NCBI RefSeq assembly: GCF_024363565.1
Contig: NZ_JAJEKE010000010.1
Span: 62,001 to 126,000, forward strand
Origin: Lutispora saccharofermentans
GTDB lineage: Bacteria > Bacillota > Clostridia > Lutisporales > Lutisporaceae
DNA: 64,000 bases
Reading direction: 5' to 3'
The stretch's first letter is position 1. The number at the start of each line of letters is the position of its first letter. The position numbers and the translations under genes are program-made. This document shows positions 13,264 to 57,863 of the stretch, piece by piece. Below the pieces are notes generated by a model that worked only from the letters and a program-made list of their open reading frames with translations, was not told the origin of the DNA and ran no database searches.

Positions 13264-13310
13264 AAAAAATAAAAGCTGGCTAAATCCTTATTAAAAATTT
13301 AGCCAGCTTA
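13264..13310 (-). terminator. Intrinsic terminator ending the 13.3-13.6 kb RNA
   Basis: A 13-bp perfect stem (AAGCTGGCTAAAT at 13273-13285 with its complement at 13297-13309) is followed on the minus strand by TTTTATTTTTTG. The T-run occurs only on this side, so the transcript runs on the minus strand. Confidence 0.8.
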
Positions 13311-13560
13311 TGAAACAGACTCTAATTCAACACAGATACCTGAATCAACCAAACTTAGTTTACCTCGTTACCTTTCTAACCAAACAACTTTCTAACTAAC
13401 CTTACAAACCCTAAACCAATTTACACTATTATCCAACTTGCTATAACCAGAATATACTTACCTAACTGACCAATAGATTGACCTATCACTAGAAATCTGA
13501 TAAATTTACATGTTGGTTGAATTAGAGTCTGCAGGAAAGATGTATCGCATCTTCCTTGTT
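13265..13560 (-). ncRNA. Candidate structured noncoding RNA, class not identified
   Basis: The minus strand holds a region without a convincing ORF that is bounded by a perfect 16-bp inverted repeat, CAGACTCTAATTCAAC at 13316-13331 and its complement at 13516-13531. The ~184 bases between are strikingly poor in C on the transcribed strand and rich in GGTTAG/AGTTAG-like words. A small 5' hairpin (AGGAAGATG/CATCTTTCCT, about 13533-13557) precedes the closing stem and a strong intrinsic terminator follows it within 10 bases. A TATACT -10-like box lies just upstream on the minus strand. The length (about 230 bases plus terminator) and closed architecture would suit 6S RNA or the raiA-type RNAs of Firmicutes, but I cannot confirm either. 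Confidence 0.6.
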
Positions 13561-13815
13561 TATAGTATATCACATAATCAATAAAAATAATACATTAATT
13601 TTCAGAAAATTAATTTTTTTCTCTTCAAGAGTCAATTGACTTTTTGAAGACTCTTAAAAGTTTAGAACAATATAGTATATATAACTTAGTTCTACGCTTA
13701 TGGTATAATATGGTATAATATATTTAGTAATAAGCAAAAGTGGTGTGCTATAAATCCAGTAATATTAATATGCTTGGATATACATACCGCTATTATTATA
13801 CGAGGAGTGAAAAAA

Positions 13816-13983: not shown

Positions 13984-14144
13984 AAAAAGTTATGCTTGCA
14001 TTGAAAAAGTAATTTCCACACCCACACAAGCGAAAGGTGGAAGTTAGTTTTGCAAAGAAAAGGTATATAATAAACAGGATAAAGGAAGTAATCAATACTT
14101 GAAAACATAGTATTATCAATGGTATTATTGAAGAGTCCAAAGAT

Positions 14145-14186
14145 CAGTCAGTTCGAAACCATCCTGACTTAAAACAAAACTAGGGA
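14145..14186 (+). promoter_or_regulatory. preQ1-I riboswitch controlling translation of queT
   Basis: A short stem GTCAG/CTGAC (14147-14151 with 14164-14168) encloses the loop TTCGAAACCATC and is followed by an A-rich tail ending in AACTAGGG, the classic preQ1-I H-type pseudoknot. The 3' pseudoknot strand overlaps the ribosome binding site (AGGGAGG), so ligand binding should hide the site and lower translation. The downstream gene is a queuosine-precursor transporter, the usual target. Confidence 0.88.
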
Positions 14187-14196
14187 GGTATAAAAA

Positions 14197-14679
14197 ATGA
14201 AAAAAACAGTTTTTCTGATGCAGGCATCGCTTATAGCCGCTATCTATGCAGCAATAACCATAGCACTGGCGCCAATAAGCTACGGCCAGATCCAGGTCAG
14301 GGTTGCCGAAGCCCTTACAATCCTTCCGGCATTTACACCGGCTGCCATACCCGGATTATTTGTAGGCTGCATAGTGGCTAACCTATACGGCGGAGGCGGA
14401 ATAATAGATGTAGTATTCGGAAGTCTTGCCACTCTCATGGCAGCGTATCTGTCCTACAAAATGCCGAAGAAATGGCTCGTTCCCCTGCCGCCTGTCGTTG
14501 TAAACGGAATAATAGTAGGCTATATACTCAATTATCTGTATGGCTTGCCTTTGCTGATCACAATGGGCTGGGTGGCTGTGGGTCAGATGATAGCTTGCTA
14601 TGGTTTTGGATATCCTCTTATGAAGGTGTTGGAGAAATATGAAGATAGAATATTCAAAAGTGATGGCAGTCATGTATAA
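14197..14679 (+). CDS. queT: Queuosine-precursor ECF transporter substrate component QueT
   Basis: 160 residues with about five transmembrane helices. The sequence MKKTVFLMQASLIAAIYAAI, the QIQVRVAEALTILPAFTP stretch and the glycine-rich NLYGGGGIIDVVFGS loop are typical of the QueT family. QueT is the substrate-capturing S-component of an energy-coupling-factor importer for queuosine precursors such as preQ1; the shared ATPase/T-component module is not encoded here. The preQ1-I riboswitch directly upstream supports the assignment strongly. No partner genes follow. Confidence 0.92.
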   Translation: MKKTVFLMQASLIAAIYAAITIALAPISYGQIQVRVAEALTILPAFTPAAIPGLFVGCIVANLYGGGGIIDVVFGSLATLMAAYLSYKMPKKWLVPLPPVVVNGIIVGYILNYLYGLPLLITMGWVAVGQMIACYGFGYPLMKVLEKYEDRIFKSDGSHV

Positions 14680-17426: not shown

Positions 17427-17600
17427 ATGTTGTATTGATTGGTAACGATTGCGGTGTTTCAGAAACTAAGATTTTGTAAGCTTGCATAGGGTTGCGTCAA
17501 AACTCGCTTTGGCTCAAACAGTTGACGCAACATTTCCTATACTGCGCTAACAAACTCTAAGCCCCTTCACAATGCAAACTTATATCAATCAATACAACAT
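17427..17600. repeat. Long nested palindromic element, copy 1
   Basis: Core 17466-17561 is an imperfect palindrome: CTAAGATTTTGTAAGC pairs with GCTAACAAACTCTAAG and TTGCGTCAA with TTGACGCAA. It is enclosed by outer perfect arms ATGTTGTATTGATTG (17427-17441) and CAATCAATACAACAT (17586-17600). The same core occurs in inverted orientation at 18514-18690 with unrelated outer arms. It fills the gap between the MetH-activation gene and metH. Confidence 0.7.
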
Positions 17601-18402: not shown

Positions 18403-18490
18403 ATATAATACACTTTAATACATATAAAATGCAAGATAGCCTTTGGCGCTGTTTTGCCCCGAAACAATTTTATGCTGAGTTAATCTGTTA

Positions 18491-18716
18491 TTCTAGCTGA
18501 TAAAAGAGTATTTTGTGAAGAGGCTTAGAGTTTGTTAGCGAAGTATAGGAAAAGCTGCGTCAACTGTTTGAGCCTATATGCTGTTAAATCGGAAAACCTC
18601 ATAAACTTGCTTTAATTTTAACAGTAATGATAAAAGCTACATGCGAGTTTTGACGCAGCCCTATACAAGCTTACAAAATCTTAGCCTTGAAACTTTATAC
18701 TTGTTATCAGCTAGAA
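18491..18716. repeat. Long nested palindromic element, copy 2
   Basis: Outer arms TTCTAGCTGATAA (18491-18503) and TTATCAGCTAGAA (18704-18716) enclose the core shared with 17466-17572 (in reverse orientation). The central loop carries an extra segment of about 70 bases (about 18574-18643) that itself has an 8-bp inverted repeat CTGTTAAA/TTTAACAG. It ends 12 bases from the metF stop codon. Confidence 0.7.
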
Positions 18717-21811: not shown

Positions 21812-21858
21812 GGCTGCAGGCTAATAAAGTATCATATACTTTAATGCTATACGCTACC

Positions 21859-21970
21859 CTTATCTCTCAGAATTTAAACAAAATCCTGCAGGAATTGACA
21901 CCGCTGCATTCGAATGAGAATGCCGGTTGTCGGGCTTCATTGGGCCAGTCCCTCCACCTCTCTGGATAAG
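21859..21970 (-). promoter_or_regulatory. SAM-I (S-box) riboswitch aptamer
   Basis: Minus-strand leader with the S-box signatures in order: CTTATCCAGAGAGGTGGAGG, GAAGCCCGACAACC, GGTGTCAATTCCTGC and the closing AGAGATAAG. P1 pairs CTTATC (near 21965-21970) with GATAAG (21859-21864). A TATAAT -10 box lies at 21981-21986. With the terminator at 21781-21811 it should stop transcription of the homocysteine/methionine operon when SAM is plentiful. Confidence 0.95.
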
Positions 21971-22187
21971 ATCTTATTCAATTATAACAAATGTTTAAAA
22001 GAAATTTTAAGCCAAATAAGAGCATTTGTCAAGTAAAATCTGCAAAATGGTTTGTTTACATTATAAAGATTTGTATGTATACTTTTATTGTATGGTTTGA
22101 ACGAAGCTTCATTGCTATGAATTGCTTTTGTTTAACGTTGTGCGGGCACCGCATGTTAATAGTGATAAATTTTAGAGGTGATCATTC

Positions 22188-57755: not shown

Positions 57756-57863
57756 ATAACTGTTAATTCGACATTCTTTTTCAATTTCCTTCTATGTTTT
57801 ATAATTTTCTAAAAATTTTGTATATGCATTTATAATCCAGTAATAAAATGACAGCCAAAAAAT

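Follow-up and report, generated by a model that had tools for sequence, protein, structure and literature searches.

A putative CodY-controlled small RNA gene with a clamped, C-poor interior in Lutispora saccharofermentans and its relatives

The minus strand of the 64,000-nucleotide stretch of Lutispora saccharofermentans DNA analysed here (the window) almost certainly carries a real RNA gene, extending from about position 13557 to about 13265. On balance, we read this locus as a single-copy small RNA (sRNA) gene whose promoter would be controlled by CodY and whose product of about 290 nt would act in trans on genes of metabolism or adaptation. The gene is free-standing and comprises a promoter, a hairpin, a closing stem, an interior and a terminator (Table 1). 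The strongest support for a real gene is that the whole unit from promoter to terminator is kept in 11 species. It adds to the catalogue an RNA family not yet listed there, with a defined start, end and fold and a likely regulator.

The sequence-only reading which singled out this region had described a noncoding unit at 13265-13560, and all of the elements it listed are present, with the -10 box located just outside these coordinates. The perfect 16-bp closing stem, with its arms 184 nt apart, and the C-poor interior are exactly as described, and the 5' hairpin and the intrinsic terminator with its T-run were recovered by folding and are kept among the homologues. The predicted RNA start lies near 13557, the -35 of the promoter is weak, and nearly all homologues share a spacing of 5 nt from the promoter to the 5' hairpin. 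A longer inserted hairpin arm occurs in the homologues L016, L017 and L019, and the terminator is strong and complete throughout. The minimum free energy (MFE) of the whole RNA was -78.9 kcal/mol (z = -4.4), whereas 200 dinucleotide shuffles averaged -59.6 (sd 4.4) and none of them folded as well. The earlier description as a structured RNA thus applies to the frame of the molecule but not to its interior, the MFE of which was weaker than the mean of its own dinucleotide shuffles in 10 of 11 homologues (z +0.3 to +2.5), L011 being the sole exception.

Table 1. Elements of the RNA gene, listed from upstream to downstream (positions in the window)
Feature	Sequence	Position	Strand	Remarks
CodY box	AATTTTCTGAAAATT	13597-13611	-	Perfect (15/15), palindromic; about -54 to -40, just upstream of the -35 region
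-10 box	TATACT	13564-13569	-	TATAAT in most homologues
5' hairpin	GGAAGATG-loop-CATCTTTC	13535-13555	-	From folding; two compensatory pairs among homologues
Closing stem, 5' arm	CAGACTCTAATTCAAC	13516-13531	-	CTCTAATTCAAC invariant in 11/11
C-poor, largely unpaired interior		13332-13515	-	184 nt, 7.1% C
Conserved interior block	TTGGTTTAGGGTTTGT	13404-13419	-	AG[AG]GTTTG in 11/11
Purine-rich conserved block	AGAAAGGTAACGAGGTAA	13360-13377	-	Two Shine-Dalgarno-like tracts; GAGGT in 10/11
Conserved interior block	TTTGGTTGAT	13344-13353	-	Conserved among homologues
Closing stem, 3' arm	GTTGAATTAGAGTCTG	13316-13331	-	GTTGAATTAGAG invariant in 11/11
Intrinsic terminator		13264-13309	-	Hairpin 13273-13309, then T-run; predicted 3' end near 13265

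Cytosine accounts for 3.4-11.2% of the interior in all 11 homologues, compared with 13-20% in the flanking DNA, and the conserved blocks TTGGTTTAGRGTTTGT, AAAGGAATGAGGTAA and TTTGGTNGAT are found inside it. Since the interior is depleted of C and folds worse than its shuffles, yet contains conserved blocks, it looks like an open loop that carries conserved motifs in single-stranded form and is clamped by the stem. Such a design, with a clamp of invariant sequence closing off an open, C-depleted interior, is unusual and lends itself to direct testing. Two further helices are not claimed here: a weak candidate in the interior, which joins A1 columns 160-165 to 215-220 and is 92% paired, for the most part by G-U, and a 4-bp helix adjoining the clamp, which was seen by eye and depends on the alignment.

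Covariation in the closing stem had been proposed as a check together with a search for homologues. Homologues with conserved pairing were found, whereas the stem itself shows little covariation. None of the 11 sequences differs in its 12-bp core (CTCTAATTCAAC/GTTGAATTAGAG), which therefore reflects sequence constraint rather than covariation; it is this lack of variation that makes the stem perfect. At the outer end of the stem, one pair shows a compensatory exchange from A-U to G-C, which probably arose in a single event. In the terminator, 10 of 16 pairs are compensatory across homologues. Control structures slid by 1-3 columns had 28-52% of cells paired, compared with 98% for the true structures. 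Conservation of pairing supports the predicted frame, with the modest statistics that 11 related sequences allow.

The 11 species each carry one copy and represent four of the seven genera of Lutisporaceae that were searched. BLAST of relatives gave clear matches, full or partial, and a sequence profile detected the RNA in 11 of 22 Lutisporaceae genomes with E values below 1e-40. All eleven known members of the family are recovered by a search pattern that combines both arms of the stem with an interior motif; against genome contigs, this pattern returned nine named records, including Lutispora thermophila DSM 19022 and Lutispora metagenome-assembled genomes (MAGs). The RNA is missing entirely from the genera g2, g5 and g6, including G009, a genome rated 100% complete; some of the RNA-lacking genomes are incomplete MAGs. 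No diverged copy was seen beside metH in the genomes without the RNA. Among 391 genomes sampled evenly across the class, the profile found nothing credible outside Lutisporaceae, and the weak matches L052-L056 were rejected as homologues on inspection. Plasmids, phages and viral contigs gave no match, and on this ground, together with the single copy, a mobile element was rejected.

A CodY box upstream of the RNA promoter had been missed by the sequence-only reading. The box is identical to the 15-nt CodY consensus AATTTTCWGAAAATT (PMC5314169) and is the sole site with no mismatch in the 64-kb window as well as in the whole 4.3-Mb genome. When the upstream region in the window was shuffled, one mismatch or fewer was reached in 10 of 20,000 cases. 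In nine of the ten homologues with upstream sequence, the box is located 25-27 nt upstream of the -10 box (its position in L017 was read by eye). Eight homologues show 0-2 mismatches and L014 has four (11/15 match); in L015 the box is not recognisable and has been lost. Just two other sites in the genome have one mismatch to the consensus. One of them (57803-57817 of the window) lies about 90 nt upstream of a gene for a YfcC-type transporter and the other ahead of a spoVG-like gene, both genes being named from their translations.

Judged by alignment, the genome encodes a canonical CodY: the entire protein can be aligned with solved CodY structures, and its DNA-binding (wHTH) stretch is near-identical. 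A second, diverged CodY-like protein (L031, G000:C15:48500-49027) scored 88 bits, and similar weak second matches were seen in G002 and G012. No CodY gene was found in G008, an 86% complete MAG that bears the RNA. Direct control of the RNA gene by CodY is likely. Together with branched-chain amino acids and GTP, CodY would bind the box, and transcription would shift with nutrient supply. Because CodY acts mostly as a repressor (PMC5314169, PMC6256015), repression under rich conditions would be the likelier direction; activation, documented for hpf, where the box likewise precedes the -35 (PMC6256015), would be less likely. As the genome's only perfect CodY box appears to drive an RNA and no protein gene, the RNA is a candidate for a key nutrient-sensing output, and it probably ties nutrient status to gene control.

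Once transcribed, the RNA would have its ends joined by the clamp, which would protect it and display the unpaired G/U/A blocks named above for pairing with target RNAs. We give base-pairing from the open loop about an even chance of being the main mechanism. Near-complements of two interior blocks (16-nt patterns, up to two mismatches) showed no excess over reversed-pattern controls in the 11 genomes, except for a repeat element in the source genome alone. Two copies of this MITE/REP-like element, with inverted repeats around ACAAACTCTAAGCC, are present in the window (17460-17565 and 18480-18700). There are about 40 copies in the genome, with no enrichment in relatives, and the resemblance of the element's end GGCTTAGAGTTTGTTAGCGAAG to an interior block of the RNA is probably a coincidence.

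The main rival to pairing is a protein-binding decoy or scaffold, comparable to CsrB and 6S but with another partner. Here, the clamped G/U/A-rich loop would sequester an RNA-binding protein or, via its Shine-Dalgarno-like tracts, the 30S anti-Shine-Dalgarno region. That the complementarity searches yielded no mRNA target fits this idea, and so do the repeated GGTTAG/GGTTT motifs, the conserved GAGGT tract and an interior that remains open and low in C from species to species despite changes in its sequence. However, the repeats have no regular spacing, no known binding motif was identified, and the conserved blocks differ among themselves instead of repeating a single unit. We therefore consider such a decoy unlikely. 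Somewhat less likely still is the more far-reaching proposal of a new nutrient-controlled RNA regulation, restricted to Lutisporaceae and under direct CodY control, in which the large loop displayed by the invariant 12-bp clamp, unstructured and depleted of C, would serve to decoy an RNA-binding protein or the ribosome.

The reading as a noncoding sRNA also has to be weighed against a dual-function or peptide-coding transcript. In this case, GAGGT and a UUG 8-10 nt later would open a frame (LVD....VELESV*) that crosses the 3' arm of the stem and has a length of about 13-16 codons. GAGGT is indeed present in 10 of the 11 homologues, UUG is found at nearly fixed spacing in all of them, and the frame reaches the same stop region in most (seven listed, plus L015, where it is one codon below the length cut-off and was read by eye). 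On the other hand, the frame does not stay intact in L013, L014 (shift) or L019 (stop), amino acids change freely at variable codons, and the residues VELE, which the frames have in common, are accounted for by the invariant stem sequence. Across the homologues no open reading frame (ORF) is conserved, short frames breaking in several, and net length changes of the interior are mostly not multiples of three; the earlier statement that no convincing ORF fits is borne out. A peptide-coding role is accordingly very unlikely.

The neighbourhood of the gene varies. Upstream neighbours across the homologues include metH, a serine dehydratase gene, gatC and others, a nagB-like gene is also among the flanks, and the genes downstream vary both in type and in direction (gene names were assigned by reading translations). 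In the window, an iron-type ABC transporter operon (13121-9451) lies 152 nt downstream on the strand of the RNA, of which the RNA might be a cis-acting leader or attenuator. This is highly improbable, since the downstream gene is convergent in L032, L038 and L039 (223 aa, with its end 11-15 nt past the terminator region) and unrelated elsewhere, and since every homologue has a strong, complete terminator. Varied neighbours, a single copy and the lack of any mobile-element match point to an independent chromosomal gene, and its RNA very probably acts in trans rather than in cis. With its own predicted promoter and terminator and no tie to neighbouring genes, it has the layout of a trans-acting sRNA gene. 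Elsewhere in the window, a preQ1-I-like riboswitch aptamer (14142-14189, plus strand; 26 bits, below the Rfam gathering score of 39) is closely followed by a queT-like transporter gene (at 14197), and a SAM riboswitch is located at 21857-21972 on the minus strand (83.6 bits).

Finally, the RNA was compared with known classes. The sequence-only reading had noted a likeness to 6S and raiA and had proposed a comparison with both models. The likeness in size stands, but class identity does not, as neither model matches and both genes are found elsewhere. In searches of Rfam 15 with the window, the locus and five homologous loci, no family reached the gathering threshold for this RNA, and a permissive scan of the locus (E up to 10) gave no plausible family, including 6S (RF00013) and raiA (RF03072). 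These results support a stand-alone, unclassified RNA. Because confident genes for 6S (C1:255632-255807, 66.9 bits) and raiA (C12:143697-143903, 186 bits) sit elsewhere in the same genome, the RNA is neither of the two. A member of 6S, raiA or another Rfam family diverged beyond recognition, as the size and closing stem might superficially suggest, is scarcely credible given that the homologues are without a match as well. As far as these searches reach, the RNA family is confined to Lutisporaceae and absent from Rfam. The new class suggested earlier can be upheld as a new narrow family, limited to 11 species of one bacterial family.

6S RNA is alike in size class and in its closing stem, but its interior is a bulged duplex and not an open C-poor loop. 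raiA RNA is likewise a stand-alone Clostridia RNA of similar length, but its covariance model gives no match. The closest precedent in regulation is RsaD of Staphylococcus aureus, which the available excerpts of two reports describe as a CodY-repressed sRNA that targets alsS mRNA (PMC9266662; also PMC5826253). Homology in sequence is not indicated, as pattern and profile matched nothing outside Lutisporaceae, and those excerpts do not report for RsaD any counterpart of the invariant 12-bp clamp that encloses a large C-poor loop in the Lutisporaceae RNA. What the two have in common, as far as RsaD is described there, is a stand-alone gene for a trans-encoded sRNA whose promoter contains a CodY box.
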